IMG/VR virus record: IMGVR_UViG_3300033149_001247
Span: 1 to 50,365 of that record
Reading direction: 5' to 3' (one strand)
DNA from: a virus
Length of the DNA: 50,365 nucleotides
Every line of letters begins with the position of its first letter. Within the stretch, counting starts at the first letter, position 1. The position numbers and the translations under genes are program-made. Shown piece by piece: positions 4,859-38,157 of the stretch. The notes under the pieces were generated by a model. The model was not told the origin of the DNA, made no database searches, and was given only the letters and a program-made list of their open reading frames with translations.

Positions 4859-4869
4859 AAGGTTCTCTC

Positions 4870-7995: not shown

Positions 7996-8005
7996 CTTAC
8001 TCTCC

Positions 8006-8206
8006 TTATCTAAAACAACCTAATGAAATTAGTGGTTCTACGTCTATATCATACACTTTAACAGTGCCGTTAGGTATACAATTGTACAACTTTCCAGCCT
8101 TAGCACTGATAATTCTACTCTTAGTCCCTGTATAGGTTAAATCTACAAAGCCACGAATAGGCGGCTTAGTGATTATATTCTTTCGCCTCTTGGCCGAAGG
8201 TAGCAC
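8006..8206 (-). CDS. Stand-alone YTG-module protein
   Basis: 66 residues from a GTG start. The C-terminal ~50 residues follow the pattern seen six times in this window: LTYTG, a variable loop, KLYNC, a hydrophobic strand, DVEPLISLGCFR. The N-terminus is basic (SAKRRKN) and lacks the CxxC seen in 11455-11688. Reading upstream in frame reaches a TGA within 7 codons and no ATG, so the GTG is the only usable start. Function unknown. Confidence 0.55.
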   Translation of the reverse strand: MLPSAKRRKNIITKPPIRGFVDLTYTGTKSRIISAKAGKLYNCIPNGTVKVYDIDVEPLISLGCFR

Positions 8207-8246
8207 GCTACCTGTTATACATCTTCAGCCCATGATTACCCCTCTG

Positions 8247-9152: not shown

Positions 9153-9379
9153 TAACCTACTCTCTTAAACAACGGTTTATTACTCTTACTCTGCCAATCT
9201 ATCATACACTTAACATCACGTGAGTCTATTATTATAACATCTCCATGGCCCTTTGTGGCATACAAATGCCTAGTCACAGGCCCCCTCCACTTAGCTTTGA
9301 TATTACCAAGGTAAATCAATCTCTCAGTTCCATGTTCCCCGAATTTAACAAGCGTACCACGCTTGATAGCCTTGTCTCT
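9152..9379 (-). pseudogene. 5'-truncated YTG-module gene next to TnpB
   Basis: An open frame of about 75 residues ending in MIDWQSKSNKPLFKRVG carries a divergent YTG module (LIYLGN, GPVTRHLY, IDSRDV, PLFKR). It has no ATG, GTG or TTG before the module. Reading upstream, the frame is closed by TGA at 9380-9382, preceded in frame by ATG 9400 (MSIGRQ), which abuts the tnpB stop. Two readings are possible: the gene lost its 5' end when the tnpB element arrived, or a nonsense codon interrupts a short first exon-like segment. Confidence 0.5.
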
Positions 9380-9399
9380 TCACTGTCTTCCAATACTCA

Positions 9400-9530
9400 T
9401 TAAAATCTTACCTTAGATTCTATGATTGGTTCTTGTTTCACTGAGGTTGCCAACGATGTCACTGCTGGTCTTATATCCTCTCCGCAAGCGTTTGAGACTA
9501 GAGTCTCCAGTTCCGGCGGGACTCGCCGTA
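9400..9530 (-). ncRNA. Putative omega-RNA scaffold region of TnpB copy 1
   Basis: The last ~130 bp of tnpB copy 1 contain a stretch (about 9437-9500) that aligns without gaps to the end of tnpB copy 2 at roughly three identical bases in four (47 of 64 by eye). The two proteins elsewhere look much more diverged. Shared blocks are GAGAGGAT, TAAGACCA and ATCGTTGGC. In IS605-family elements the omega-RNA scaffold overlaps the 3' end of tnpB, so this conservation is taken as the scaffold core. Ends and guide are not determined. Confidence 0.4.
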
Positions 9531-10647
9531 CTGCTAAACTTTTAAGATTCTGTGCAGCATTGAAGTCCCTATCTAACACTGCTCCACAATTACAGACCCA
9601 TACTCTATTTGATAACTTCAGTCCAGAGTTAATATAACCACAATGTCTACATAACTTACTAGATGGGAAAAATCTATCAGCAATTATTAGTTCCTCGCCA
9701 GCCCATAGTGTTTTGTACTCTAGTTGTCTTCTAAACTCAGCCCAACTTACATCGCTAATAGCCTGTGCTAAATAATGATTCTTAATCATCCCCGCAACAT
9801 TTAAGTCTTCTATAACAATTGTGCCCGGTCGTTTCTTATCAGGCTCGGTTTTTGCTACAATGGTGGAGGTAGCCTTATGGAGAATATCTCTACGTATACA
9901 GCTTATTTGGTAGTAAGCCTTAGCTAATTTCTTTCTTGTCTTTTCTCTATTTTTACTACCCTTTTCTCTTCGTGCAAGTTCTCGTTGTAATCGTTTAAGC
10001 TTGTGTTGGGCTTTCTTGAGGGTTTTAGGGTTCTCAAATTGCTGACCATTACTGCAAACTGCAAGCGTCTTAATTCCTAAATCTACACCAATGGGTTCAC
10101 CTATTGCCTGTGTGACCTCAATCTCTTCTCTACATTGAACACTAACAAACCAATGTCCCGCTTTCTCAGACATAGTGGCAGATAGAATATGAATACCTTC
10201 AGTAGGAATATAATCACACTCTTTTAGCCTAAGCCAGCCTATACGCGGAAGCCTAATTCGTCTATTTTCAACTCGGATAGTACTACCCGTTAGCCGAAAA
10301 CTATTAGCATTATGTTTCTTAGACTTAAACTTGGGAAGACCCACTTTTTCACCATTCTTTATACATCGGAAGAAATTTTGGTATGCCCTATCGAGGTTAC
10401 GCAAAGCTTCTTGGGGGATACATTTAGAGTAATTATATAACCAAGGATATGTGGTCTTTTTCAAGGCATTTAGCTGTCGATTTTGTTCAACAAAGTTACT
10501 TGATTTGCCAATATTCTTATATTCTTGTTTGCGTTGGCCTAATCCCCAATTCCAAGCCCATCTTGCTACGCCAGCGCATTGTAACAATAGAGTGCGTTGC
10601 TTATTATTTAAGTCAAGCTCAACTTTGTAACCTCTAAAAATTTCCAT
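9400..10647 (-). CDS. tnpB: TnpB-type RNA-guided nuclease (IS605/IS1341-like), copy 1
   Basis: 415 residues. RuvC-like acidic residues are present: D189 in GVDLGIKT, E280 in VIEDLNVAGM and D361 in DRDFNAAQ. A zinc ribbon lies between them (CRHCG at 333-337, CNCG at 352-355). TnpB proteins are transposon-encoded omega-RNA-guided DNA endonucleases. No TnpA lies beside it. The C-terminal tail ending VKQEP is poorly structured, as expected where the omega-RNA is encoded over the 3' end of the gene. It sits directly between two YTG-module genes, with only 9 bp between the upstream YTG stop and its ATG. Confidence 0.9.
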   Translation of the reverse strand: MEIFRGYKVELDLNNKQRTLLLQCAGVARWAWNWGLGQRKQEYKNIGKSSNFVEQNRQLNALKKTTYPWLYNYSKCIPQEALRNLDRAYQNFFRCIKNGEKVGLPKFKSKKHNANSFRLTGSTIRVENRRIRLPRIGWLRLKECDYIPTEGIHILSATMSEKAGHWFVSVQCREEIEVTQAIGEPIGVDLGIKTLAVCSNGQQFENPKTLKKAQHKLKRLQRELARREKGSKNREKTRKKLAKAYYQISCIRRDILHKATSTIVAKTEPDKKRPGTIVIEDLNVAGMIKNHYLAQAISDVSWAEFRRQLEYKTLWAGEELIIADRFFPSSKLCRHCGYINSGLKLSNRVWVCNCGAVLDRDFNAAQNLKSLAVRRVPPELETLVSNACGEDIRPAVTSLATSVKQEPIIESKVRF

Positions 10648-10656
10648 TGTATTGAT

Positions 10657-10854
10657 TTATGCTTTCCGAAAGCATCCCAGCGACTCTAGATAGCTTATAT
10701 CTGCCTCATTACAAGCAAATGGCCTAACCCTACTAACAAGATACCGCTTACCAGTTGCGCCATAGAATGGCATGGGAGCTAACTGATTCCCAGTATATAT
10801 CATCAATACTTCATTAGCCGATAGTGTTGGCCTAGTTGGCAATTTTAATGGCAC
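10657..10854 (-). CDS. Stand-alone YTG-module protein
   Basis: 65 residues from GTG 10854. The module reads LMIYTGN, then a loop, KRYLVS, a strand, and DISYLESLGCFRKA. An alternative upstream ATG at 10890 with GGAG before it is in frame but meets TGA at its third codon, so either the GTG is used or the gene is broken near its start. Its stop lies 9 bp before tnpB copy 1. Function unknown. Confidence 0.55.
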   Translation of the reverse strand: MPLKLPTRPTLSANEVLMIYTGNQLAPMPFYGATGKRYLVSRVRPFACNEADISYLESLGCFRKA

Positions 10855-10960
10855 TGACCGCGCCGCGATAGGTGGATGACCTCAACCCATTGTCCTATTT
10901 CTCCATTAGTTCTAGTTTTATCTTGCTATCCCGCATCTACTTAAGAACCCCCTTGTACTA

Positions 10961-11017
10961 GGCGAATTAGCTCTTCGAAAGCTCTTAAATAGGGCGAATT
11001 AAGCCCTTTTCAAAGCT
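10961..11017. repeat. Imperfect 24-bp direct repeat pair in a 205-bp intergenic gap
   Basis: Two copies of GGCGAATTA followed by a small inverted repeat and AAAGCT occur at 10961-10984 and 10993-11017. Each copy can form a short stem (AGCTCTTCGAAAGCT-like and AGGGC/GCCCT-like). The rest of the gap 10855-11059 holds no gene that could be supported. Their position near a TnpB element suggests transposon-end remnants or operators; neither can be settled here. Confidence 0.45.
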
Positions 11018-11059
11018 ATTGGTACTTTATCCCTTTATTTCTCTCTACGTGCGTTAGAA

Positions 11060-11455
11060 TCAATCCCGTGGGCGACCTTGAGCCTGTAGTCGCCTTCCAC
11101 TTTCTCGCATAGCCTCAGTGACAATTATCTCCGGATGCTTTCGCAGCCAAGCCCCTACATCTTTGGCCTCGGTGCTAAAAGGCTTATTGGGATTCAATCC
11201 CTTGATTCCTTTACTTACTCTGATATTCCTGTCCATCATGCTGCATGTGAAATAGCCCGCTTCAAAAGTAAGTTTCTTTTTGGCTATCTTGCGTTGAGTA
11301 ACAAGCCACTGAGGAACTATAAAAGTATCTGAGCTTCGGCGGGGGCAGACAGACTCATCTGGATACCAACTTGGGTCAGTGGGAACTAATGGACATAGCG
11401 TAGCCTCGCATCCATTAAATCTTGGGCATTTCTCTTTCGCCGCCATATCAGTCAT
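11060..11455 (-). CDS. Cys-rich small phage protein
   Basis: 131 residues. The N-terminus has a four-cysteine cluster beginning KCPRFNGCEATLCPL with a further VCP, a pattern recurrent in phage and bacterial small proteins and likely to bind zinc. The C-terminus is basic (SGRRLQAQGRPRD). ATG 11455 overlaps the TGA of the upstream YTG gene; GTG 11458 directly before it is also possible. No function assigned. Confidence 0.6.
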   Translation of the reverse strand: MTDMAAKEKCPRFNGCEATLCPLVPTDPSWYPDESVCPRRSSDTFIVPQWLVTQRKIAKKKLTFEAGYFTCSMMDRNIRVSKGIKGLNPNKPFSTEAKDVGAWLRKHPEIIVTEAMRESGRRLQAQGRPRD

Positions 11456-11688
11456 CACTTCCCCACCCTAAAGTATCCAAGATTTAACAACGCTTTTACA
11501 TTCCCGCCATCTACAATTACTTCTGGCCTGAGCTTGCTAAACGTCAACACTTGTCCTGATGGCGCGGTAATAGCCTGTCCGCCAATTGATTCGCCAGTAT
11601 AGTACAAGGTTACTAGAGTCCCGGCCTTAGATGGCTCATAATTGCTCTTATTCAGTGTACCCTTGCGACAATTTGTACAACGAGCCAT
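11455..11688 (-). CDS. Stand-alone YTG-module protein with N-terminal CxxC
   Basis: 77 residues. The N-terminus MARCTNCRKGTL is a zinc-knuckle half; the module is TLYYTGE, a loop, VLTFS, a strand, NVKALLNLGYFRVGK. It is the most complete stand-alone member and lies directly downstream of, and overlapping (TAATG), the 836-residue glycosyltransferase that ends in the same module. This supports a fission/fusion relationship. Function unknown. Confidence 0.65.
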   Translation of the reverse strand: MARCTNCRKGTLNKSNYEPSKAGTLVTLYYTGESIGGQAITAPSGQVLTFSKLRPEVIVDGGNVKALLNLGYFRVGK

Positions 11689-14198
11689 TAAACCACCTTC
11701 TTAAACCAGCCAATATCTAGCAACTTCTCTATATCCTTGTTCTTCGCGGCAAACTCTCTGTTCTTTACTGAGAACGTGTAGCGATTGGAACTAATAAATA
11801 TCACCTGTGGCGCAACCTTCTCGCCAGTATATCTCAATAAAGAAGTATCTCTGCCAGAGACCGTCTTTCCATACATGGCCAACTGTTCTTGTCCGCAGCA
11901 ACCCATAGGTCGCTCACCTTTATATATACTATAATGCTTTTCGCGTAAATAGTCAAGCACTAATTGCTGCAACACTTCGTCTTTCTCTAGAACATCTCTC
12001 ATTGTGCCGTCATGCTGACGATACTTTAGAGTCTTAACTTTAATCCTTCTACCACATACGCCGATCAGTCCTAGCCTAATGTGATAATCCCAGTCTTCAT
12101 AACCATCGCGCATAGCCTCATCATAGCCGCCAACTTTCTCCCACGCCTCTCTAGGATACATGCTGGTAGCAGGAATAATGCTACGTGCCAAGAGTCTATC
12201 AAAATCATACTCTTCTAACTTAGCCTTAGTCTCAGTGCCATTATCCCAAAAAGGTATAATATCACCATAGACTATTAACGGGTCAATAGTAGAGTTCTGC
12301 ATAGTTAGCATCTTATCTAGCGCAGATGGCGTCAGCATATCATCAGCATCTAATGGCACTATATACTCAGTATCAAGCCACTCTATACCGCGATTCCTGG
12401 CGGCAGATAGTCCCTGGTTATCCTCTAGTTCTAACAGCCTAAATCTATGGTCATCATTGGGTATTATCTCGGCTAGCCCCTGATGCCCACCATCATCAAC
12501 TATTATAACCCTAAAGTCTTGATACTTCTGCTTCTGCAAACTCTCAATAGCATCACTAAGATACTGTTTTTGTTTATAGCATGGTATTACTATACCAACT
12601 GAACAAGGATATAGCTCAGGGTGACAAGCATTAACTATAGCGCGAAGCCTCTTCTCTTGCCCCTGTGAGTCCATATTTCTACCTGTGCCGCGTATTCGAT
12701 AGTTAAAGTAAGTATCATTAACATGAATCCCGTCATAGAAATGCTTGCCTATATTTAGCCATAGCTCATAATCTTCCCAACTAGGATTGATATTCTTATA
12801 CCCACCACATCTACGCCATGCTTCTTTTCTAAACATACTACAGCAACCAAGGAAATTGCCCTTAACTAAGTCTCTAAAATTCCATTCTCGACACTTAACT
12901 GTGCCATACTCTTCACCAAAGAGACGGAAGTTACCATAGGCTATGCCAATTGATCTATCACTGGAAATAGCTCGATATAACTTCTGGATGTAATCAGAGG
13001 GTATCTTGTCGTCACCATCTAAACATAGAACATATGTCCCACGGGCAACCTCTATGCCAGCATTACGCGATGGGCCAGCTTTTAGATTAAACTTATTAAG
13101 CACTAACCGTAACTGTTTATTCTTCCGCTTGAGTCTCTTAAGAATCTTCCTTGAGTTATCAGTAGAACGGTCATCAATTATGATAATCTCATATAGCTTA
13201 TCGAACTGTTGATCTAATGCTGACTGGACAGCTTCTTCTATATACTTCTCAAGATTATAACAGGTAATAACTATACTAACTTCAATATCATCTTCATTCT
13301 CTGGCTTAAGAGCATCTTCATAGCATTGGATATACTGAGGAATAATCTTGTCCCAGTCATAATCTTTGGCTGACTCTCTAGCATTAGTAGACAATGCATT
13401 ATAATCTTGTAGAATATGTTGCGCGGCGGCTAGTAACTGTGGCCACTCGATAGCATTAGCCTGTGGTGATTCACCAAGATGGCCATTATAGCCGTTCTTA
13501 ATAACTTCTGCTGTGCCACCCCAGTTGAATCCCAACACTGGTTTACCAAGGGCCAGTGCCTCAATAACCTGTACCGAAAACTGTTCATTAGTTATTGCAA
13601 TTAGAACTGAGCTATCAGCGATAATCTGTAGCATCTTCTCATAATGTTGCAGTCCTATTACTGTAACGTTGGGAGGAAGTATACCAGCGGGAGCAAATGT
13701 CAAGATAAACTTACACTGAGGAAGTTGACTAGCAAGCCATAGCGCGGGCCGAGGATCATTAGGCCACGCCATGTTATTCTTGGCCCATAGAAAGACAGGG
13801 GTATTGCTGGGATACTGTTCTATAGTCTGTAAATACTTCCAGTCTACACCGTTGCGAATAATACGAGGCTGAATATTGAGCTTGTTTTGGTAAATCTCTG
13901 TAGTATGCTGACTGACACTTGTGACAACCTTTGCGGCCACTAGAAGTCGATGAATAATCTCATTAGCCATAGTCTCATTAGGAGTTTTGGGATCGCGCCA
14001 AACACCATGATTTGTGTAAACATCTGCTTGAGAATGCCATGCCAAAGCGTGACAATGACGTATATCAGCCAAATCAGGATTATCAACAATTTCAATACCA
14101 TACTGTGGCAGTAGTCTAGTTAAGTCACTTACTACACGATTGACGCCACCTATTGAAGATGAGAATGAACTTGCTGTGGGCAAAAGGCAAACTTTCAC
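11688..14198 (-). CDS. Three-domain glycosyltransferase GT4-GT2-GT2 with C-terminal YTG module
   Basis: 836 residues from GTG 14198 (AAGGAA 10 bp upstream). Residues 1-300 are a GT4 domain (SSIGGVNRV, QFSVQVIEALALGKP, GGTAEVI). Residues 306-525 are a GT2 domain (VSIVITCYN, IDDRSTD at 341-347, DGDD at 394-397, WEDY at 474-477). Residues 533-755 are a second GT2 domain (VGIVIPCY, VDDGG at 567-571, DADD at 617-620, YEDWD at 700-704). Residues 785-836 are the YTG module (LRYTGE, RYTFS, LLDIGWFKK). All three catalytic domains keep their acidic motifs, so three successive sugar transfers are plausible. It is a larger paralogue of 626-2578. Confidence 0.88.
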   Translation of the reverse strand: MKVCLLPTASSFSSSIGGVNRVVSDLTRLLPQYGIEIVDNPDLADIRHCHALAWHSQADVYTNHGVWRDPKTPNETMANEIIHRLLVAAKVVTSVSQHTTEIYQNKLNIQPRIIRNGVDWKYLQTIEQYPSNTPVFLWAKNNMAWPNDPRPALWLASQLPQCKFILTFAPAGILPPNVTVIGLQHYEKMLQIIADSSVLIAITNEQFSVQVIEALALGKPVLGFNWGGTAEVIKNGYNGHLGESPQANAIEWPQLLAAAQHILQDYNALSTNARESAKDYDWDKIIPQYIQCYEDALKPENEDDIEVSIVITCYNLEKYIEEAVQSALDQQFDKLYEIIIIDDRSTDNSRKILKRLKRKNKQLRLVLNKFNLKAGPSRNAGIEVARGTYVLCLDGDDKIPSDYIQKLYRAISSDRSIGIAYGNFRLFGEEYGTVKCREWNFRDLVKGNFLGCCSMFRKEAWRRCGGYKNINPSWEDYELWLNIGKHFYDGIHVNDTYFNYRIRGTGRNMDSQGQEKRLRAIVNACHPELYPCSVGIVIPCYKQKQYLSDAIESLQKQKYQDFRVIIVDDGGHQGLAEIIPNDDHRFRLLELEDNQGLSAARNRGIEWLDTEYIVPLDADDMLTPSALDKMLTMQNSTIDPLIVYGDIIPFWDNGTETKAKLEEYDFDRLLARSIIPATSMYPREAWEKVGGYDEAMRDGYEDWDYHIRLGLIGVCGRRIKVKTLKYRQHDGTMRDVLEKDEVLQQLVLDYLREKHYSIYKGERPMGCCGQEQLAMYGKTVSGRDTSLLRYTGEKVAPQVIFISSNRYTFSVKNREFAAKNKDIEKLLDIGWFKKVV

Positions 14199-14568: not shown

Positions 14569-14591
14569 GCTCAAGGCTAAAGCGCCTGAGC
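14569..14591 (-). repeat. IS605-type right-end hairpin candidate with bulged T
   Basis: On the minus strand the sequence folds as GCTCA-GGC / GCC-T-TGAGC with a six-base loop and one unpaired T in the 3' arm. It spans the end of tnpB copy 2. IS200/IS605 ends are imperfect subterminal hairpins with an extruded T, so this is a good candidate for the right end of the element. The exact cleavage site is not called. Confidence 0.45.
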
Positions 14592-14700
14592 TTCTGGCTT
14601 CGACGAGGCCGCCAACGATAATGCCGTTGGTCTTACATCCTCTCCACCAGCGTGAGTTCCGGCAACTCCTGCCGTACCAAATAACTCAATGTTTATTGCT
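14577..14700 (-). ncRNA. Putative omega-RNA scaffold region of TnpB copy 2
   Basis: The 3' end of tnpB copy 2 (about 14591-14654) carries GAGAGGAT, TAAGACCA and ATCGTTGGC blocks at the same spacing as copy 1. Conservation at base level without gaps, between otherwise divergent genes, fits an RNA constraint. The downstream end probably lies at or beyond the hairpin at 14569-14591. The guide sequence is not determined. Confidence 0.4.
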
Positions 14701-15767
14701 GCATTTTCGTCTCGGTCATGGATAACCCCACATTCAGGACATACCCATTCTCGATCCGAAAGTTTTAACAATCCATTGATATAACCACAATGATGACAAC
14801 GCTTAGATGAAGGAAAGAATCTATCAACTTGGCTAATCTGACAGCCATACCATTTACCTTTATAAGAAAGCTGACGAATAAATTCTCCCCACCCCGCATC
14901 GGCAATAGACTTAGCGAGACAGTGATTCCGCATCATATTCTTCACGGCTAGGGACTCAGCATAGATAACTTGATTTTCATTAACTAGCTTACGAGTCAAT
15001 TTGTGAAGAAAGTCATTACGCTGATTCTTTACTTTCTCATGTTGCCTAGCAAGGACAAGTCGCGCTTTTTCCCAACCATTAGAACCCTTTTTACAACGAG
15101 ATAACCGCCGCTGCAATCGCCTCAGCCGTTTTTCGGCCTTACGAAGATATTGAGGGGCTTTTACTCGTTCACCCTTAGATGTAACAATAAAATCCTTAAG
15201 TCCTAAATCAATACCAATTATGTCGCCATTATACTCTGGCTCAAGAATCTCATCTTCACATAAAATGGAGGCAAAATACTTATCAGTCTTGGTTTGAGAA
15301 ATAACAACATGCTTCATTTTGCCTGTGATGGGTCGATGGATGGTCATACTAACTAGGCCAGGGACTTTAGGGAGACGTAATTTGCCATCCTTAATCCAGA
15401 ACCTCTGTGGTACACGAAAAGATTGCTTGCCTCGCTTACTCTTGAATCTTGGGAAACTGGCTCGACGCTTAAAGAAATTTACATATGCTGTATCAAGATC
15501 ACGCAAAGATTGCTGAAGTGATTGTGAATTGATTTCACTAAGCCAAGTATAATCAGGTTTATGCTTAAGGTCAGTCAACATCTGAGATGTGTCATAATAA
15601 TTTAGACCCTTTTTGCCATCACCACTTTTGTTGGCTATATAATAGTCAATTCGCTCACGCAAGAAATAGTTATAGACAAAACGGCAACATCCAAATTGTT
15701 TAGCAAATACTTCTTGTTGATCCTTGTTAGGATAGAGTCGAAACTTATAGGCTCGTCTAATCTTCAT
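14577..15767 (-). CDS. tnpB: TnpB-type RNA-guided nuclease, copy 2
   Basis: 396 residues from ATG 15767. RuvC-like acidic residues are D187 (GIDLGLKD), E271 (VIYAESLAV) and D353 (DRDENAAIN). The zinc ribbon is CHHCG (324-328) and CPECG (343-347). The N-terminus [17 protein letters not shown] is typical of the family. It is a different lineage from copy 1, judging by the N-terminal region and insertions. A perfect sigma-70 promoter ends 7 bp before the ATG, so the mRNA should be leaderless. No TnpA is nearby. An upstream in-frame start would run through the promoter and is rejected. Confidence 0.9.
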
Positions 15768-15774
15768 GCTTACA

Positions 15775-15803
15775 ATTATAGCGTTGTTTTTGTAACCTGT
15801 CAA
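15775..15803 (-). promoter_or_regulatory. Perfect sigma-70 promoter of tnpB copy 2
   Basis: Minus strand TTGACA (15798-15803), 17 bp spacer, TATAAT (15775-15780). The expected start site falls at or one base before the tnpB ATG at 15767, which predicts a leaderless transcript. Confidence 0.8.
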
Positions 15804-18616: not shown

Positions 18617-19203
18617 GGTTTCGCCTCCAATGCATCGGACAGCTCAGTCATCAGTTGCCTTGCTTCTATGGTCGCATCGGCACTAAAGCTGCTACTGATT
18701 GAATTCGCAAGCAGGGAAAGGAAAAGCTGCGCCTTTCTCCTTGGCTGGCCGCCCAGCAATACCTTTTCGATCCCCCGCAGCCGCTTCAACTCTGCTTGCA
18801 TATCCTCGATCCACTCAATCGCATGTGGCACACATTGAGGCCCGTGCGCCGGACATTCGGGAATAGCATCAAGTACCCTGTCACATTCCGTCAAAAGTTT
18901 ATCCGTTACGTCTAGTAGCTCCTCTGCGCATCGAGGACAGAAGCCGCGTATCGCATTCCGTGGCCTAACGCCGCGCTTGCAGTTGGCACATTCTATCATC
19001 GTGTGAAGTTCGGCTCGAACGTATTCAATAGCACCGACCTCTGGCTCACTCTCCCATGTCACCGCGCCCAGCATATCACGATGCAAATAGATTCGTTCTG
19101 GCAATTCTCTCATCTCATCCTCCAATATCGGTGCTTCGTCATTCCGTAAATAGTCGGGAGCCTCCGTTATGACAAAGTCGCCCCAATGCCCTGGGACTAG
19201 CAT
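18613..19203 (-). CDS. Accessory protein with PERIYL domain and zinc ribbon
   Basis: 196 residues from ATG 19203 (AGGAGG 8 bp upstream). Residues near 35-65 contain LPERIYLHRD...GAVTWE...IEYVRAE, a recurrent phage domain also seen in 20591-20896. A zinc ribbon follows (CANCKRG...CPRCAEE) and then helical sequence (MQAELKRLRGIEKVL). The gene belongs to the visibly G+C-rich block. Function unknown. Confidence 0.55.
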   Translation of the reverse strand: MLVPGHWGDFVITEAPDYLRNDEAPILEDEMRELPERIYLHRDMLGAVTWESEPEVGAIEYVRAELHTMIECANCKRGVRPRNAIRGFCPRCAEELLDVTDKLLTECDRVLDAIPECPAHGPQCVPHAIEWIEDMQAELKRLRGIEKVLLGGQPRRKAQLFLSLLANSISSSFSADATIEARQLMTELSDALEAKP

Positions 19204-19215
19204 CACGGCCACCTC

Positions 19216-19389
19216 CTACCAATCCTCGTCAATAATGGCGTCGCAAATCGGACACCTACCTTTGCTGTCATTGATGCAATCCATGCAAAATGGGCCAGCG
19301 TCGCACTCGTCACAATAGATTGAATCCTCACCTTTGCCTGCCCTACCAGTTGCCTCGCCGCATTTGCAACACGTTTCTATCTCGCTCAT
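19216..19389 (-). CDS. RING/FYVE-like zinc protein
   Basis: 57 residues from ATG 19389, which overlaps the stop of the gene upstream (ATGA). Cysteine pairs CCKCG, YCDECD, FCMDC and CPIC give a cross-brace-like double zinc pattern. Not recognised further. Confidence 0.55.
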   Translation of the reverse strand: MSEIETCCKCGEATGRAGKGEDSIYCDECDAGPFCMDCINDSKGRCPICDAIIDEDW

Positions 19390-19724
19390 TCCCATTTCTC
19401 TCCGACCCATACGGGCCACTCATCACTCCCCACATTTCGCCAGCCGTCCTTGTCGAATCCCAGCGCCACAATATCAGCCTCGCTCAATGCGTACAGGTTG
19501 CCGCCGCCACGCATCCAATACACCGCCTCTGCCGCATCTAGCGCCCAGTCCGCAGGCTCATCGGCTATCGCGTTCCAGCCGTCGTAACCCATGCCAGCTT
19601 CCAGGCGGTTGTAGGCCACACACGCCACGTCATGGCCAGCAGATGGGACGACGCCGACTTCACCAGTTACAATGCGGGCGACCATATAGATGACTGTGTA
19701 GGCGATGAGCGCGGCGTTAGTCAT
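19386..19724 (-). CDS. Possible SleB-like cell-wall hydrolase, membrane-anchored
   Basis: 112 residues. The N-terminal ~20 residues are hydrophobic (ALIAYTVIYMVARIV) and could be a signal anchor. The following GEVG (E22), VACVAYNRLEAG and LYALSEADIVALGF resemble SleB/CwlJ-type hydrolases, where the Glu after the first helix is catalytic. The domain is short for the family. Two 34-residue membrane peptides lie directly upstream, so lysis is a reasonable guess. It could also be an unrelated small protein. Confidence 0.45.
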   Translation of the reverse strand: MTNAALIAYTVIYMVARIVTGEVGVVPSAGHDVACVAYNRLEAGMGYDGWNAIADEPADWALDAAEAVYWMRGGGNLYALSEADIVALGFDKDGWRNVGSDEWPVWVGEKWE

Positions 19725-19821
19725 CGGTGGTTGCCTCTAGCAACAACCCCACTATTATTCCCGTTGAAAGTCCGAATACAAAGCCACATGCCGCCGCTAT
19801 CAGCACCCCAAGCAGTATCAC
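19717..19821 (-). CDS. 34-residue membrane peptide
   Basis: GTG start with AGGGGG 9 bp upstream. Nearly the whole peptide is one hydrophobic helix (ILLGVLIAAACGFVFGLS...), ending in EATTDD. It overlaps the hydrolase-like gene by 8 bp. Possibly a mini-holin or lysis accessory. Confidence 0.5.
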   Translation of the reverse strand: MILLGVLIAAACGFVFGLSTGIIVGLLLEATTDD

Positions 19822-19845
19822 GCTTCACTTCCCCCTCTCATTATA

Positions 19846-19950
19846 CTAGTCATCGCGATAAACCTCGTCTATCCACAACCATGCCATAGCAATCATACCC
19901 ACTATCGCCATGCCCAGGCAAATGAGCAATCCGAATTCTCTATCAGTCAT
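19846..19950 (-). CDS. 34-residue membrane peptide
   Basis: ATG start, sequence MTDREFGLLICLGMAIVG then a single membrane span ending in WIDEVYRDD. It overlaps the upstream gene by 8 bp and precedes the other 34-residue membrane peptide by 24 bp. Both have acidic C-termini. Confidence 0.5.
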   Translation of the reverse strand: MTDREFGLLICLGMAIVGMIAMAWLWIDEVYRDD

Positions 19951-20149
19951 CGGGCGTATCCAAAAGCAAGCCTAGCAGCCTCTGTATTCGTCGCTCTCTC
20001 ACCCAAGCAAATGTATTAGCTGCGATTTCTGCACCATGTGCGGCTACTTCTTCAGGATCACACCCGTGTGCCCGGAGATACTTGTCCACATCCTCTTCGG
20101 TTGCGTTGTATCCAAAGTTTGATCCGCTCATGCTCCTGTTATCACTCAT
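19943..20149 (-). CDS. Hypothetical protein
   Basis: 68 residues, acidic N-terminal half (NATEEDVDKYLRAHG) and a helical C-terminal half (ERRIQRLLGLLL). ATG 20149 overlaps the TGA of the ORF upstream. Not recognised. Confidence 0.5.
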   Translation of the reverse strand: MSDNRSMSGSNFGYNATEEDVDKYLRAHGCDPEEVAAHGAEIAANTFAWVRERRIQRLLGLLLDTPDD

Positions 20150-20307
20150 TGGCCAGTCTCCCTCAGCATCCTATTGATTTCGTCCCAGATCGGCCCCGCC
20201 TCTGGTAGCTCTCCCACAATGCGCACTCCGTCTAGTCGCTCAAACAGGTCACGCATCTCTAGCCAGTCAGCCTTAAAAGCACGCTTCAACGCAGGCGACC
20301 ATCTCAC
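20146..20307 (-). CDS. Hypothetical protein, start uncertain
   Basis: 53 residues from GTG 20307, ending ...WDEINRMLRETGQ. The frame stays open upstream to about 20382 (with WLLKDNVENVSIGRLL) but has no ATG, GTG or TTG there, so a non-standard start such as CTG, or a shorter protein, must be assumed. The stop overlaps the next start (ATGA). Confidence 0.45.
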   Translation of the reverse strand: MRWSPALKRAFKADWLEMRDLFERLDGVRIVGELPEAGPIWDEINRMLRETGQ

Positions 20308-20354
20308 ATCATCAGTGAGCAGCCTCCCTATTGAGACATTCTCAACATTGTCTT

Positions 20355-20591
20355 TCAGCAGCCACCTATGCTCACTCGCGTTTCACTCTCCTCTTCTCCG
20401 CAAATACTCTTCGCGTAACATGTCTTATGCCACGTCGTCCTGACTAGATGCGGAAATGGCACAAGGTCGCAATGACAAACCTCTTCCGTCCACAACAAAT
20501 CCGCTAGGGCAACCGTGGCGCAATTACGGCCACAGCCAGGGCAATTGCCTGACCAGTCGTGGGCAATACTTCTTCCCCATTTCTCGTCCAT
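20355..20591 (-). CDS. Cys-rich small protein
   Basis: 78 residues with CPGCGRNC near the N-terminus, CHCD in the middle and further Cys at KTCYAKSIC. Probably zinc-binding. It overlaps the PERIYL gene by one base (TAATG). Not recognised. Confidence 0.5.
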   Translation of the reverse strand: MDEKWGRSIAHDWSGNCPGCGRNCATVALADLLWTEEVCHCDLVPFPHLVRTTWHKTCYAKSICGEEESETRVSIGGC

Positions 20592-20896
20592 TATTCACTC
20601 TCCCCGTTTTCCTCTACCGTTTCTGAATCTTCGAGAAAGGCGGTTTCGGCGTATGCTATGCGCGGTTGAATCTCTTTTGGCTCATCTTGCCAGCCCGTCC
20701 AGTCATCGCCCCAGAATAACGCCAATCTCAGCGCCTCCCGTAATCTCACCGCCACATCCCGCCGCACGTACTCGATGTCGCTTTTGTCAATACGGTCAAC
20801 GCACCAGGTCACGCCTTCAAGATCGCTAATGCTTTCCACTGGCTCCTCCCATGCATCCAGTCCTATCTGCAAATAGATTCGCTCAGGAGCTTCCAT
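20591..20896 (-). CDS. PERIYL-domain accessory protein
   Basis: 101 residues. APERIYLQIG, VTWCVDRI and DIEYVRRD give the same small domain as in 18613-19203, followed by a helix (LREALRLALFW) and an acidic tail. Such proteins are frequent in siphophage accessory regions; function unknown. Confidence 0.6.
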   Translation of the reverse strand: MEAPERIYLQIGLDAWEEPVESISDLEGVTWCVDRIDKSDIEYVRRDVAVRLREALRLALFWGDDWTGWQDEPKEIQPRIAYAETAFLEDSETVEENGESE

Positions 20897-21293
20897 CGGT
20901 ATCCTCCTCTAGCCATGCGGTTTCGTCAATCACCGTGCCAGCCGCCCATCTTGCGTCGTCCAGCACCATGACATCAAGATTCGTCACTGGCCGATTGCTA
21001 GACAGTTTTCTCGATATTAGTCCAGCCGCTTTCACTAGCACCACGAGCACATCACGCTCTGTCACCGCCGCCTCCAACACGCGGGGAAGGTCTGTGCGGG
21101 CGTTAACGCAAAACATCACGTCATAGATGCTAACTAGCGGATCCTCAATGGCATATATTAACGCCAAGCGATCAACTTTGAGCCGCGTTAATATCTCGCT
21201 TGTTTTAGACGTGCCCTCAGAGAAATACCATTCTCCCCCTGTCGCCGCCTCGCAGTACGCTCGGATTTCGTCAGCCGTTCGCTGCTCAGTCAT
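20883..21293 (-). CDS. Ead/Ea22-like accessory protein
   Basis: 136 residues from ATG 21293, with GGAGGAG directly upstream. IRAYCEAATGGEWYF and VNARTDLPRVLEAA match the common phage pattern 'CEAATPGPW ... ARTDLPxLL' of Ead/Ea22-like proteins. The C-terminus is acidic. Function in the family is unclear. Confidence 0.6.
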   Translation of the reverse strand: MTEQRTADEIRAYCEAATGGEWYFSEGTSKTSEILTRLKVDRLALIYAIEDPLVSIYDVMFCVNARTDLPRVLEAAVTERDVLVVLVKAAGLISRKLSSNRPVTNLDVMVLDDARWAAGTVIDETAWLEEDTDGSS

Positions 21294-21516
21294 CGCTCCT
21301 CCTCCGTTCCCATATCCACCATCGCACCCGCGCCGGTATGTCAATTATTGCCCACCACAGAAGCCGCCTCAGCGGAATGTTCATGCACACGTAGCCCCGC
21401 GCCTCTCCGTCGCAGTAACCGACTAGCCCCTCCTCAATCCAATCAGCCGGCGTCCCGTCCGGCCATTCATCGGCGTCCCCCATCTCGTAGACTTCGAGTA
21501 GTGCGTATCGCCACAC
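21286..21516 (-). CDS. Hypothetical protein with hydrophobic C-terminal segment
   Basis: 76 residues. Acidic N-terminal half, then a Trp-rich hydrophobic segment (LRRLLWWAIIDIPARVRWWIW) reported here by its core LLWWAIIDIPA, and a basic end. It may associate with the membrane. Not recognised. Confidence 0.5.
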   Translation of the reverse strand: MWRYALLEVYEMGDADEWPDGTPADWIEEGLVGYCDGEARGYVCMNIPLRRLLWWAIIDIPARVRWWIWERRRSDD

Positions 21517-21517
21517 G

Positions 21518-21877
21518 TTATACGTCCTCCCATTCTGTCACATACCCGCCGCTCTCATACCGGTATGATTCGCCGCCACGTGACAAGGCCCGTCTCAACG
21601 TCTTGATAGCCTCTCCATTCTCAATCATCTTCTTCGTAACACGAATCAGGCACCAGGATTCTATGTTCGCCTCGTTGTATTTCTCGATATCACCGTAATA
21701 CCGGTTCAATTTGTGGTGCCCGAAGCCCTCAACTTCCAGCAATACCCGCTGCGGCACGAAGGCAAAGTCGGCCCGCCACTTGCGCAACTCGTGCCACTTG
21801 AACTCACGCATGTAGCCAGTTATTCCTGCCGCGCGAAGGTGCAGATCCATTGTCGCCTCTAGGTCAGATTGTGTCAT
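21518..21877 (-). CDS. Vsr/DUF559-like PD-(D/E)xK endonuclease
   Basis: 119 residues. HELRKWRADFAF (D37) followed by VLLEVEGFG (E48, E50) gives the D...ExE core of very-short-patch-repair-like nucleases. Then EKYNEANIESWCLIRVT and a helix with GEAIKTLRRAL, typical of phage members of this superfamily. It probably nicks or cleaves DNA or Holliday junction-like structures; the substrate is unknown. ATG 21877 overlaps the membrane-peptide gene upstream. Confidence 0.7.
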   Translation of the reverse strand: MTQSDLEATMDLHLRAAGITGYMREFKWHELRKWRADFAFVPQRVLLEVEGFGHHKLNRYYGDIEKYNEANIESWCLIRVTKKMIENGEAIKTLRRALSRGGESYRYESGGYVTEWEDV

Positions 21878-22014
21878 CGCATCCCTCCCAGTATCGCGCC
21901 CCAGATCGCCAGTGCCCCAGCCACATTGCCAGCAAGCAGCTTTCTAACAATACTATTCTCTCCAGTCTCAATAGGCTCCCGTGGAATCCCGCAAATGAAT
22001 AGATTAGCTTTCAT
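21874..22014 (-). CDS. 46-residue membrane peptide
   Basis: Sequence MKANLFICGIPREPIETG then a C-terminal hydrophobic helix (NVAGALAIWGAILGG). ATGA overlaps link it to both neighbours. Function unknown. Confidence 0.5.
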   Translation of the reverse strand: MKANLFICGIPREPIETGENSIVRKLLAGNVAGALAIWGAILGGMR

Positions 22015-28478: not shown

Positions 28479-28517
28479 GCTGTTTCCTGTCATAGAAAGG
28501 CTTATGTTGCAGCTTTC

Positions 28518-28724
28518 ATAGCCGCACCCAGAAATACTCTATTAAAAAACAGTCGCAGATTCTCTCTAAGTATAGCCGATTATGTCGCCGAAGTCAATAG
28601 TTGCTAGACAATAAAGAAGAGAGAAAAGTGGTTAACTCTTCTCTCTCCTTCTTGACACTAGTAGCTTATTAGCCCATTAGTGTCAAACCCTGTTTTTCAA
28701 CAGAGCATTTCTGGGTGCGGCTAT
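28518..28724 (-). ncRNA. Structured leader RNA closed by a 35-bp stem
   Basis: The arms 28518-28552 and 28690-28724 are inverted repeats identical at 32 of 35 positions. All three differences become G-U pairs in a minus-strand RNA, but A-C mismatches in a plus-strand RNA. Inside are two further hairpins: 28618-28646 (12-bp stem, again with one G-U only on the minus strand) and 28652-28686 (TTGACACTA/TAGTGTCAA). A promoter ends next to the outer stem. The transcript leads into the macro-domain gene 40 bp later. It may be a free RNA or a regulatory 5' leader. Confidence 0.6.
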
Positions 28725-28753
28725 AGATTATCATACTTAGCTGCTTTTGTCAA
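28725..28753 (-). promoter_or_regulatory. Sigma-70 promoter of the structured leader
   Basis: Minus strand TTGACA (28748-28753), 17 bp, TAATCT (28725-28730); GATAAT two bases earlier is an alternative -10. Predicted start near 28718, inside the first arm of the 35-bp stem. Confidence 0.65.
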
Positions 28754-28763
28754 GCGTTACCAG

Positions 28764-28796
28764 ACATAAGAAAAAGGAGAAGCCTAAACTTCTCCT
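28764..28796 (-). terminator. Intrinsic terminator after the major capsid gene
   Basis: On the minus strand AGGAGAAG and CTTCTCCT form an 8-bp stem with a 6-base loop, followed by TTTTTCTT. It lies about 30 bp after the major capsid protein stop codon. Confidence 0.8.
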
Positions 28797-28828
28797 CTTT
28801 CTCTATACTATTTATATCTAGTTCTATG

Positions 28829-30235
28829 TTACCGTTGATCTCCACCACTAGTACCAGCCAAAACCTGGCATCCGGAATAGAAATACGGTACTGCGCCACT
28901 AGCTGAATTAGCAGGAGGATTACCAGCCCAGAAATACTCATCACAAGGTTCTGGTGTCTCGGGCGGTAGATTAAACGGAGCGCAAACGTTAGTGATTCTA
29001 CCAAGTAGCCACGGGGCCTTCATACGGAAGCGGGCCTTTGTGAGTACAGTCTGGTTGAAGCACTCGTTCATGCTATTGCTCCAGATTAGGAAGCGGCCAC
29101 CATCAGTGACCCTTGCGCCATTGACTAGCTGATCTACGGGAATGGTAGTCCCTGCCAATGTTGCGGCAAAGTCCTGATGCTCCATATACAGAGTCTGCAT
29201 GACACCAACCTTGCGTGTTAGCACAAAGATGTCTGAGCAGAAATAAGGAGCTAGGGAAGTCTGTGGAATCCAGTCATTAGTGATAACATCAACCGCGACG
29301 CCATCAACTTCTATCATACCCATTCCGTAAGTGCTATCCTGCATTAGTCGGGCGCGTTCATCACGGCTCCGAAGCGGGTCTATATTCACTTCGTTATACT
29401 GGCTACCAGTACATGGGCCACAACCACATGCCATCCAGTCAATTAGAGCATCACGCATCAAGCTCGTCATAACCAATACCATGTCGCCCCTCTGTACGCC
29501 ACCAAGAGCCTTCGCGCGTCTGCGGATTCGCCTTACGATGTCATTGAGGATATTACAGATATTACTATTTGCGGCAGCATTGCCCCAGTCATAGATATAT
29601 GGCTCTTCGCCTTCGCAGCGACGACCATTACGGGCGTCAGTGATGGGCTGATTGATAAGAACCATTAGGCCATCCCAGTCTAGAGGATTAGCGGTATGGT
29701 TACCTACAATAAGCATTCTTTCAAATGCCATTTTTAGCACACCAGATGCTACGGCAATCTGCCACTGCTGGTCATTTACCACTCGCTGAGTTGCGTGAGG
29801 GCCACGGATGTAGTAGATAGGCTGTTCGTCACAACGACTTAGCCCCACACTGGTAAGTTTGAGGTCCTGTCCGGCATGTGCGATCTCGCCGAAACAGGTG
29901 ATTAGCTCGCACTTACCCCACTCAACCTTGGGAGCGTCTGCGCACTCTTCGGTTCTGTTCCAAGTACATGCATCAGTCCCTGTTCCCTGCGGGCCAATGA
30001 AGCTGATGATCTTGTCGAAATCGGGATCAACAGTTGAAGGCTTCATTCCAAGCCAGGTGCTCAAGAAGTCGTCAGGGACGAAACTTGAGATTAGCTCGTT
30101 CCCACCACACCAGCTAAACATACCATTACCATGCATAGTTGAGAGGGTAGGTGTGGCTGTTCCACCTGTGGCTACCTTTATTCCCGCATTGGGTTGCAAG
30201 AGACTAGCGAGATATTCTACGTCTTGTCGTCTCAT
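28829..30235 (-). CDS. Major capsid protein (HK97-like, Cys-rich)
   Basis: 468 residues, following the protease/scaffold gene with its own GGAG site 6 bp before the ATG. The position directly after a prohead protease and before a strong terminator, the size, and the beta-rich sequence with long-loop segments (NPLDWDGLMVLINQ, GDMVLVMTSLMRDALIDW, VGVMQTLYMEHQDF) fit an HK97-fold capsid protein. About sixteen cysteines, including CGCGPC, are unusual for a capsid protein and may form disulfides or bind metal. No direct family match was computed. Confidence 0.8.
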   Translation of the reverse strand: MRRQDVEYLASLLQPNAGIKVATGGTATPTLSTMHGNGMFSWCGGNELISSFVPDDFLSTWLGMKPSTVDPDFDKIISFIGPQGTGTDACTWNRTEECADAPKVEWGKCELITCFGEIAHAGQDLKLTSVGLSRCDEQPIYYIRGPHATQRVVNDQQWQIAVASGVLKMAFERMLIVGNHTANPLDWDGLMVLINQPITDARNGRRCEGEEPYIYDWGNAAANSNICNILNDIVRRIRRRAKALGGVQRGDMVLVMTSLMRDALIDWMACGCGPCTGSQYNEVNIDPLRSRDERARLMQDSTYGMGMIEVDGVAVDVITNDWIPQTSLAPYFCSDIFVLTRKVGVMQTLYMEHQDFAATLAGTTIPVDQLVNGARVTDGGRFLIWSNSMNECFNQTVLTKARFRMKAPWLLGRITNVCAPFNLPPETPEPCDEYFWAGNPPANSASGAVPYFYSGCQVLAGTSGGDQR

Positions 30236-33937: not shown

Positions 33938-34000
33938 TGTAAAACTACTACATATATAGAGCTATGCTATTTCGCATAATGTATATGTCGTAGTTTTACA
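33938..34000. repeat. 63-bp palindrome containing a half-dif (XerC arm) sequence
   Basis: Arms 33938-33956 and 33982-34000 match at 18 of 19 positions; a small TATGC/GCATA stem lies in the loop. The plus strand at 33973-33986 reads CGCATAATGTATAT, identical to 14 consecutive bases of the E. coli dif site, and the four bases before it (ATTT) also fit the dif consensus for the XerC arm. The XerD arm side is degenerate. No T-run follows the hairpin on either strand, so it is not a standard terminator. It could be a Xer recombination or dimer-resolution site. Confidence 0.5.
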
Positions 34001-35406: not shown

Positions 35407-38157
35407 TTATGACGGTGCGCCAACTCCCATAATAGGCAATCTTGGAGCAGTCGGTGGCATAGATATACTAGTGCTGGTGCTACTTGAACTACTGCTAGAA
35501 CTGCTAGAGCTAGATGACGAAGACGAGCTACTGCTACTGGAGCTGCTACTAGAGGATGATGAAGAACTGCTGCTGCTTGATGAAGAACTACTACTTGATG
35601 AACTAGAACTAGACGAAGATAATGACGAGCTTGATGAAGAAGAACTCGAAGATGATGACGATGATGACGAGGAGGAAGAACTACTAGATGAGGAGCTACT
35701 TGATGATGAACTAGAGCTACTAGAGCTACTTGATGAGCTGCTACTAGAACTGCTAGAGCTTGAACTGGAGGACGATGAACTTGAGCTGCTACTACTGCTC
35801 GACGAGCTTGAGCTTGAACTACTAGAGCTTGAAGAACTTGATGATGAAGACGAGCTACTTGATGAAGAGCTTGAGCTAGACGAACTGCTCGATGAGCTAG
35901 AGCTGCTTGACAATGAACTTGAAGACGAACTGGATGAACTAGAAGAACTTGAAGATGACGAGCTGCTGGACGACGAAGATGAGCTACTACTACTAGAACT
36001 GCTACTTGAGGATGAGCTAGAACTTGAGGAGCTGCTGCTTGAGCTTGACGAGGATGAGCTGCTACTTGAGCTTGATGAACTAGAACTGGAGCTACTCGAA
36101 GAACTACTACTAGACGAACTCGATGATGAACTACTTGAACTAGATGAAGATGAGCTACTGGACGAGGATGACGAACTAGAAGACGAGCTACTAGACGAAG
36201 AGCTTGAACTAGAGCTACTGCTCGATGAAGAGCTTGAGCTACTACTGCTAGAACTGCTGCTTGACGAAGATGACGAGGAACTAGAGCTACTACTACTAGA
36301 TGAACTCGAAGAACTGGATGATGACGAACTGCTGCTACTCGAACTAGAGCTACTGGAGCTAGACGAGCTGGAACTAGATGACGAAGAACTTGATGAAGAG
36401 CTGCTACTTGACGAACTGGAGCTTGAACTACTACTGGAACTTGACGAACTGCTAGAAGACGAAGATGAACTTGACGAGCTGCTGCTGGAGCTACTACTAG
36501 AAGACGAGCTACTGCTCGATGAGCTGGATGACGAACTTGAACTTGACGAGCTACTCGAAGACGAGGAACTTGAACTAGAAGACGAGCTACTTGATGAGGA
36601 ACTACTAGACGAGGAGCTACTAGAGCTACTGCTACTGGAACTACTACTTGAGCTGCTACTTGATGAAGATGAGCTTGACGAAGATGAACTACCAGTGCTA
36701 TATTCAATGTGGAGTTTTGCACCCGATACGTTGCCAGAAGATTCATAGGTGAGACATCTAGTAACTTTGAGTGCATCTGTCTTCCCAATGAACATGAAGG
36801 CCATATTGTTATTAGCCGACCATGATCCCCTATCTACTATTTCCTGAACAACAAGCTTGAGGCTGGGTGACTGTTTCCACCCAGTGCCGAGGCCGTCCTG
36901 TACCCAGGCCGCTGATTCTGCCGTCCGCGCCCTAGACCAAAGGGTATCATCACTGAAATCTACAGCACTGTCAACATCATTGCCATAAATGTCCATGTTA
37001 ATGTCGTCATATGTATCATTACTAATATAGATTTCTATATAAGCAACATCAATGGTAGCGCCTTGTGCAACATTGACAGTCTGAAATCTTACACCTCCTC
37101 CTTTATAAGCGTTATTCGCTACGTCTGTATTTGACTGAAGCTCCATAACGGTATTGGTAATAGCACTATAATAGTACTCACCCTCCCAGACATACCATCT
37201 AGTTGTATCATCATTCCCTTCCCCTACCTGCTCATCTATATCGGGGTCGAAGATAATAGTGCCTTCCGGCAGAGCATTGAGCGCAAGGACAGGCGCACCG
37301 ACCAGCAGATAGTGCTTGTCGTTCTTCTTGATGAACCGCTTGCGCAGATGAACCTGTATCGGCTCATCGTTCTCGTCAACAGGTTCGCCCTCGGGCCACG
37401 CCTTGCTCGCAGGCAGTGCGGTGATTATCTCATCTTGATGGTTTTTGAGATACAGTCTAGTCGCTCGCTCAAAATCAGAATCCTTATCTATATTGCCCTC
37501 GTCATCAGCCAGCCCTGGCACTTGTCCCCAACCTACTTCGTAGACCATGACCAGATATGTATCAGCGGCAGGATATGGTGGGTGAGGCATTGCATCCCTG
37601 GCGGCTTGGCTGACCTTTATCTCCTCATGCAACTTATCACCAGAGATGTGTATCTCAAAGTCCACGCCAGGGAAGAGGTCGGCCCAAGTCAGTTTGCCCG
37701 TCGGATTCGGAAGCAGAGCATTCCCGTGGTCAATTGCTTCCGCGCTGGGTGTCCCATAACTGGCCTCGCGGATGGTCGTATATTCCTTCGTGGCTATGTT
37801 AAGGTACGCTATGCGGTCAAGTCTAAGTCCGATCCCCACGCCCTTCTTTTCAGCGGCGAACCAGCCACCGTTTCTGGCTAGGAATCGCCAGTGGGACTTC
37901 TGCATCTCCCAATCCCAGCCAGGCTCGTCACTGGGTACTATGCGCGGGTCTACGTCAAGCCACTGGCCTGAACCTTCTACTTCCTCATAGTGTAGAGAAC
38001 CAATCGTGGCATCTAAGGAATACTGTCCAGTAGGATTCCCGTTAATGTGAAGGTGTTTCGTCTTGGACGTGCGGGTACGTCTGGCCGAGATTTCACGCCA
38101 TTCTTCATTCCACTCAAATTCAGGGGAACCCTCTGCCAGAAAATGTTTCTTAGCCAA
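35407..38157 (-). CDS. Giant polyserine appendage protein
   Basis: 916 residues from TTG 38157 (GAGGG upstream). Residues 1-320 are a mixed domain with many Trp and charged residues. Residues about 325-488 form a beta-rich domain (GVRFQTVNVAQGATIDVAYIEI, LKLVVQEIVDRGSW, AKLHIEY) resembling carbohydrate-binding-like beta-sandwiches of extracellular proteins. Residues 490-893 are almost pure serine, broken by only two Leu. A short tail (PPTAPRLPIMGVGAPS) follows. The tract uses all six Ser codons. It is probably an exposed virion fibre or appendage. The long ORFs on the opposite strand and in the second minus frame are by-products of the codons. Confidence 0.8.
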   Translation of the reverse strand: MAKKHFLAEGSPEFEWNEEWREISARRTRTSKTKHLHINGNPTGQYSLDATIGSLHYEEVEGSGQWLDVDPRIVPSDEPGWDWEMQKSHWRFLARNGGWFAAEKKGVGIGLRLDRIAYLNIATKEYTTIREASYGTPSAEAIDHGNALLPNPTGKLTWADLFPGVDFEIHISGDKLHEEIKVSQAARDAMPHPPYPAADTYLVMVYEVGWGQVPGLADDEGNIDKDSDFERATRLYLKNHQDEIITALPASKAWPEGEPVDENDEPIQVHLRKRFIKKNDKHYLLVGAPVLALNALPEGTIIFDPDIDEQVGEGNDDTTRWYVWEGEYYYSAITNTVMELQSNTDVANNAYKGGGVRFQTVNVAQGATIDVAYIEIYISNDTYDDINMDIYGNDVDSAVDFSDDTLWSRARTAESAAWVQDGLGTGWKQSPSLKLVVQEIVDRGSWSANNNMAFMFIGKTDALKVTRCLTYESSGNVSGAKLHIEYSTGSSSSSSSSSSSSSSSSSSSSSSSSSSSSSSSSSSSSSSSSSSSSSSSSSSSSSSSSSSSSSSSSSSSSSSSSSSSSSSSSSSSSSSSSSSSSSSSSSSSSSSSSSSSSSSSSSSSSSSSSSSSSSSSSSSSSSSSSSSSSSSSSSSSSSSSSSSSSSSSSSSSSSSSSSSSSSSSSSSSSSSSSSSSSSSSSSSSSSSSSSSSSSSSSSSSSSSSSSSSSSSSSSSSSSSSSSSSSSSSSSSSSSSSSSSSSSSSSSSSLSSSSSSSSSSSSSSSSSSSSSSSSSSSSSSSSSSSSSSSSSSSSSSSSSSSSSSSSSSSSSSSSSSSSSSSSSSSSSSSSSSSSSSSSSSSSSSSSLSSSSSSSSSSSSSSSSSSSSSSSSSSSSSSSSSSSSSSSSSSSSSSSTSTSISMPPTAPRLPIMGVGAPS
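35479..36690 (-). repeat. DNA encoding a ~404-residue serine homopolymer
   Basis: About 404 codons of AGC, AGT, TCA, TCC, TCG and TCT in mixed order. Two single-base changes give Leu (TCG to TTG and TCA to TTA). There is no exact tandem unit at base level, so it is a protein-level rather than DNA-level repeat. Confidence 0.95.

Follow-up and report, generated by a model that had tools for sequence, protein, structure and literature searches.

The closest described systems are two phage RNAs that act on the next gene of the same strand, c4 and IsrK, and the type I pairs IstR-1/tisB and OrzO/zorO. The c4 antisense RNA of phages P1 and P7 (RF01695) represses its target according to the excerpt of PMC12197685, and a reference title in PMC8546580 gives c4 as a processed 77-base RNA. 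In the phage P1 annotation c4 lies on the same strand as its target mRNA, directly upstream, and pairs with the target leader through two short sites of 7-8 nt (a2 and b2). IsrK of prophage Gifsy-1 (RF01394) activates its target, orf45-anrP, with the short RNA turning on translation of a read-through message that is otherwise inactive; in the excerpted text of PMC4825925 it is a phage small RNA encoded on the same strand upstream of that target, its terminator can be read through, about 30 nt in its middle pair with the downstream message, it acts in trans, and part of the RNA switches between a local hairpin and a long helix. In IstR-1/tisB and OrzO/zorO, as excerpted from PMC4147584, the small RNA is complementary to a long 5' UTR over about 20 nt (21 nt in IstR-1), pairing takes place away from the ribosome-binding site and the duplex is cut by RNase III; IstR-1 represses by blocking a standby site, the RNAs and their targets are divergently encoded, and the targets are small hydrophobic toxins.

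The locus described here lies in the genome of an uncultured phage (IMG/VR record IMGVR_UViG_3300033149_001247, positions 1 to 50,365; this whole stretch of 50,365 nucleotides is called the window below), between a probable major capsid protein gene and a gene for a macro-domain protein. We read it, with a probability of about 55%, as two tandem minus-strand units, in which promoter P1 drives a small RNA and promoter P2 drives the macro-domain mRNA with a leader complementary to that small RNA (Table 1). The arms, the promoters and the macro gene are all on the minus strand, which is the same-strand upstream arrangement of c4. Unlike c4, which has two short segments around the ribosome-binding site of the next gene, this locus has one continuous 35-nt site that ends about 30 nt upstream of the Shine-Dalgarno sequence, together with a terminator-like hairpin of its own and a second promoter. 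The switch of IsrK between a local hairpin and a long helix is also found here in silico, whereas the complementary stretch is the 5' end of the RNA, the target appears separately promoted and the target is a macro-domain gene. As in the type I pairs, the small RNA is, in silico, complementary to the 5' UTR of its target; we do not class the locus with them because the target is a 148-aa Macro protein (PF01661) and no small toxin, and, in contrast to their divergent genes, the two units are in tandem.

The RNA proposed here would work like the same-strand phage RNAs c4 and IsrK and is, by covariance search, a member of neither. The c4 covariance model gave no matches in the window (positive control in phage P1: 68.8 bits, 9.9e-15) and none in 28480-28860 at E up to 5. 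The window was likewise without a match to the IsrK model (RF01394), for which the control was weak, since among three records only phage P1 matched, and below the gathering score. That match in phage P1 (NC_005856.1, 48230-48311, L042) scores 35.1 bits against a gathering score of 50 and lies directly upstream of c4, suggesting an isrK-like and a c4-like RNA in one phage RNA arrangement. An Rfam 15 scan found only a tRNA in the window, the best weak matches in 28480-28860 lying far under gathering, and a retron, a riboswitch or another Rfam RNA was rejected for want of a match. No reverse transcriptase was found among the 28 different ORFs scanned, which are a subset of the ORFs of the window, not each of them run against both libraries. 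In the literature search listings this locus was not found described, a statement that extends to those listings and to no wider body of print.

Tentatively, the locus may represent a self-contained riboregulator of new layout. In it a small RNA with a terminator at its end would pair, over the whole of its 5' 35 nt, with the leader of a downstream gene that is separately promoted on the same strand; the G-U pairs would be placed to permit a GNRA hairpin of the small RNA's own; and the pairing would act in trans as a short RNA and, on read-through, in cis as a 35-bp closing stem, all in control of a macro-domain phage cargo gene. If this is true, it would be a third layout beside c4 and IsrK among the few same-strand phage RNAs for a next gene, and it would tie RNA regulation to a macro-domain gene. 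It would also serve as a caution that a long RNA-compatible stem may be a pair of small RNA and leader, not a single folded RNA.

Table 1. Positions of the predicted signals, RNA elements and genes at the locus, in window coordinates.
Feature	Position	Strand	Description
Probable major capsid protein gene	28829..30235, stop at 28829	-	upstream neighbour; ORF
Terminator-like hairpin 3' of capsid gene	28768..28803	-	18 pairs, U-rich 3' side
Promoter P1, predicted	28725..28753	-	TTGACA-17-TAATCT with upstream TG, or TTGACA-15-GATAAT
Proposed small RNA, ~111-114 nt	28608..28721	-	ends estimated from where promoter and terminator lie
5' arm, 5' end of small RNA	28690..28724	-	complementary to macro-gene leader
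Hairpin A	28687..28706	-	8 bp, GAAA loop; alternative to leader pairing
Hairpin 1	28652..28686	-	9 bp closed, inner 4 bp
Hairpin 2, terminator-like	28613..28651	-	17 bp, U-rich tail 28615-28608
Promoter P2, predicted	28569..28597	-	TTGACT-17-TATACT, expected start ~28562
3' arm, target site in macro mRNA leader	28518..28552	-	~+10 to +45 from P2
Five-codon open frame MKAAT	28502..28519	-	overlaps 3' arm end; read from sequence
Macro-domain (ADP-ribose-processing) gene, 148 aa	28047..28493	-	PF01661 E 2.9e-14; phrog_335 E 7.9e-37
Likely true start of macro gene	ATG 28478, behind AGGA 28488-28485	-	read from sequence

The two arms, each of 35 nt and 91% complementary as DNA, were noted in a preliminary description of this DNA and were recovered independently as the strongest inverted repeat in the whole 50-kb window. 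As minus-strand RNA they form 36 uninterrupted pairs (28517-28725), four of them G-U, compared with 18 on the plus strand, and this stem is the longest in the window, the maxima of 20 dinucleotide-shuffled windows being 15-19. Folding of 28518-28724 on the minus strand gave -103.1 kcal/mol (z -13.3, with 0 of 200 shuffles as good), a slightly longer stretch gave z -11.4 on the minus and z -9.0 on the plus strand, and in a scan of both strands with 210-nt windows the eight most extreme windows all begin within 28501-28681. That the differences between the arms are compatible with G-U pairing only as minus-strand RNA proved correct; the probability that all three differences give G-U pairs on a preset strand is 0.016-0.064 (transition share 0.5-0.8), and the bias is suggestive, of modest weight, not strong. 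The same description had an inner hairpin with one such difference, which did not hold: the 17-bp hairpin has two internal G-U pairs and one more at its base, and the other hairpin bears an A.C mismatch above its 9-bp stem.

Promoters and terminators were ranked by a sigma-70 matrix and a terminator score, both simple and hand-made. P1 has a perfect TTGACA and a weak -10 (TAATCT, 3/6; alternatively GATAAT at a spacing of 15) and ranks 26 among 548 sites on both strands; its exact combination occurs once in the window against 0.01 expected, for a pattern picked after the site was seen. This is the promoter placed here in the preliminary description, and it is not in the output of a separate, stricter promoter scan. 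P2 is noncoding, lies 76 nt upstream of the listed macro ORF start, agrees with the consensus at 10 of 12 positions (separate promoter scan) and ranks 12 of 548 by the matrix, above P1. Of the top six sites on the minus strand, five lie at least partly outside any ORF although noncoding DNA makes up only 12.6% of the window, and the remaining one overlaps a TnpB frame at its beginning; we therefore regard the matrix as informative for this phage.

Hairpin 2 ranks second among the 26 terminator candidates of the window (hand-made score, both strands), and 40 shuffled windows together gave just two candidates at -26 or better. Its U tail is interrupted (UUUAUUGU, to 28608), it has few G-C pairs and it is not in the output of a separate terminator scan. 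The hairpin behind the capsid gene ranks third of 26 by the same score (fold z -5.5) and is not in the minus-strand output of the separate scan. A terminator is followed by a promoter in like geometry at two boundaries, hairpin end 28770 with a -35 at 28753 and hairpin end 28616 with a -35 at 28597. Of 200 shuffles of the 60 nt from hairpin 2 to the 3' arm (28612-28553), 198 fold as well or better; this would be expected of promoter DNA but not inside a structured RNA. Because of this unstructured linker, promoter P2 and the terminator rank of hairpin 2, the 3' arm most likely lies in the leader of the next transcript, and the long stem most likely forms between two RNAs, or within one on read-through alone.

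The alternative that survives best, though we consider it unlikely, is that of the preliminary description, a single RNA of about 200 nt (~207 nt), free or as the 5' leader of the macro mRNA, with a multibranch interior closed by the 35-bp stem; RNase III would then trim the stem, or the closed domain would control the downstream gene in cis. The fold of the whole stretch (z -13.3) and the coincidence of the P1 start with the outer stem speak for it, and read-through transcripts must take up the closed fold, by reason of which we treat it as a sub-case of the two-unit reading. However, the 3'-terminal third of the interior has less structure than expected by chance and carries P2, a strong terminator candidate stands in the middle of the interval, and no U-tract is found 3' of the outer stem. 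Other parts of that description are supported: a structured minus-strand RNA with its start close to that of the outer stem, hairpins within this RNA, a link to the macro-domain gene, and arm differences compatible with G-U pairing.

From its predicted signals and folds, the interval seems to encode a noncoding RNA of about 112 nt with its own promoter and terminator. The RNA is laid out as a 15-nt tail and then hairpin A, hairpin 1 and hairpin 2 (the terminator), the hairpins abutting. Folded alone, 28721-28608 gives -46.7 kcal/mol (z -6.7, a value reached by none of 200 shuffles), and hairpin A, which overlaps the inner half of the 5' arm, gives -9.0 kcal/mol (folded as 28687-28708; z -6.2, 0 of 200 shuffles). 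Over its first 32-35 nt the RNA is complementary to the leader, and the duplex of arm and leader comes to -57.4 kcal/mol. The dimer ensemble reaches -108.7 kcal/mol against -47.8 and -28.8 for the parts, or about 32 kcal/mol below the two parts; the next-best site on the phage strand gives -27.4, and eight shuffled arms span -25.6 to -31.2. The capsid mRNA was rejected as a second target of the small RNA (common 13-mer, 28927-28939), its -26.9 kcal/mol lying inside the shuffled-arm range.

At the three arm differences a G of the small RNA (28706, 28701 and 28698) faces a U of the leader. Two of these build hairpin A: 28701 pairs with a C, and the GAAA loop begins with 28698. For the natural 5' arm folding gives -4.8 kcal/mol, versus 0.0 for the exact complement of the leader (the other arm, plus strand); the natural leader arm gives -3.2 kcal/mol, and a sequence exactly complementary to the 5' arm gives -6.3. 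Because of these folds, which were noticed post hoc, each arm appears to have a structure of its own with pairing kept via G-U, and the G-U differences may let the small RNA gain hairpin A and leave the leader open.

These differences also bear on a reading without any RNA function, in which a recent inverted duplication, a MITE-like insertion or a DNA-level element (cruciform, protein-binding or replication site) merely happens to sit between terminators and promoters. We hold it to be quite improbable: the element is in single copy and without homologues, its arm ends (ATAG..CTAT) make a TA target duplication possible and one relative lacks it, but each of the three arm differences gives a G-U pair in the transcript, at the probability given above, a stable local hairpin arises from them in one of the arms, the arms begin where the two predicted transcripts have their 5' ends, a second copy of the stem was looked for in the window and none was found, and there is no skew change at the locus. 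A replication origin at the locus was rejected on that same absence of a skew change. Least probable of all is that the stem is an RNase III signal or insulator that merely cuts capsid-operon read-through from the macro operon, with no regulation in trans, for although the locus separates an accessory cassette from a gene for which high expression is expected, and long perfect double-stranded RNA is a standard RNase III substrate, the capsid gene is already followed by a terminator hairpin of its own (18 bp), the two arms have separate promoters and hairpin A would be superfluous.

The preferred reading of two tandem units was built in silico from complementarity, two promoter-like and two terminator-like signals and folds, and from these we infer transcription, pairing in trans and RNase III cleavage. 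The first unit would run from P1, just behind the capsid terminator, to hairpin 2 at about 28608 and would yield a noncoding RNA of about 112 nt with a single-stranded 5' tail of 15 nt and three hairpins. The second would run from P2 (~28562) as the macro-domain mRNA, with a leader of about 84 nt and the target site near its 5' end. First contact would be made by the free tail of the small RNA with the leader sequence AUUUCUGGG, largely open in the predicted fold; hairpin A would open, a duplex of about 32 bp would form, and RNase III could cut it. On read-through of hairpin 2 the same stem would form inside one molecule, as the closed structure described earlier.

The small RNA would probably act as an RNA switch for the macro-domain gene. 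By analogy with c4 and IstR-1, we give lowered expression of the macro gene about an even chance; activation, as for IsrK, would be somewhat less probable and ranks as the chief alternative, since the ribosome-binding site can be masked by the leader without any partner; an absence of any effect on macro expression takes up what is left. Accessibility of the leader Shine-Dalgarno sequence changes from the P2 leader to the read-through transcript from 0.13 to 0.81 (mRNA end 28460), from 0.15 to 0.35 (end 28400) and from 0.52 to 0.14 (end 28340). With short leaders the first bases of the 3' arm mask the ribosome-binding site and pairing frees it; as more coding sequence is folded the difference shrinks or reverses. 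Release of the Shine-Dalgarno sequence was for this reason rejected as a firm mechanism, being dependent on the folded coding length.

Macro-domain genes are suspected of a part in phage-host conflict over ADP-ribose signals in the excerpt of PMC9503650. Here a glycosyltransferase lies downstream of the macro gene, as does a methyltransferase-like frame (the latter under the Pfam cut-off), and the MKAAT frame ahead of the macro gene has no good Shine-Dalgarno in the sequence. Of 50,697 phage records, 394 contain relatives of the Macro protein, all at <60% identity; none were found in viral contigs. Upstream of the gene in six of these 394 records the longest same-strand stems have 13-15 pairs versus 36 here, and the stem was rejected as a conserved feature of phage macro genes on its absence in those six.

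The capsid gene was named from gene order: its ORF adjoins a head-maturation-protease-like ORF, a large terminase is nearby, and the ORF itself had no family match in protein family searches. Its relatives came to one contig, with none in phages and none in genomes, and a 511-aa head-region protein had no relative. This only relative is an uncultured 55-kb phage with a capsid 57% identical. Behind its capsid gene come a terminator-like hairpin of 12 bp and then a glycosyltransferase, and it has no matching macro gene and no comparable stem (longest 21 pairs). Because the relative is without stem and macro gene, the element is either an accessory insertion here or was lost there. Among viral contigs the exact arm pattern had 11 matches, none accompanied by a second arm (at best, 9-11 of 16 letters agreed within 600 bases), and the hairpin-1 pattern had 13, with neighbouring inverted 12-mers at spacings of <=57 bases versus 172 here, which we took as chance. 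The arm patterns searched in viral contigs and genomes, and the pattern of the small-RNA body, gave none; blastn against phages and plasmids gave weak matches over 25-32 bases at E 0.3-4 in 5 and 3 records, also taken as chance.

Several other features of the window were recorded. On the minus strand at 44687-44631 a perfect TTGACA-17-TATAAT has its -10 abutting the best terminator-like hairpin of the window (tail of 7 T), so that promoter and terminator overlap, and an ATG follows at about 44605. Another boundary of hairpin and then promoter lies after the terminase gene, where a 19-bp inverted repeat with a 25-nt loop (33938-34000) is followed by TTGACA-17-TATTAT at 33900-33872. About 1.2 kb of degenerate GAGCTACTAGA-like repeats (35471-36748) give a 425-aa plus-strand open frame antisense to a 916-aa minus-strand frame that is apparently serine-rich there. 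Over 19001-22000 the GC content rises from ~0.42 to 0.53-0.55; both strands carry open frames there, and the two ORFs scanned that lie wholly inside had no PHROG match, so that the stretch is possibly an insertion of other origin. Two TnpB/OrfB-IS605 genes (9400-10647 and 14577-15803, both on the minus strand) have ~74-75% DNA identity over repeated stretches, and omega RNAs could lie in the noncoding gaps next to these genes. Several glycosyltransferase genes at 626-14198 have similar stretches of 61-85% DNA identity, thousands of bases apart, suggesting duplicated cargo.
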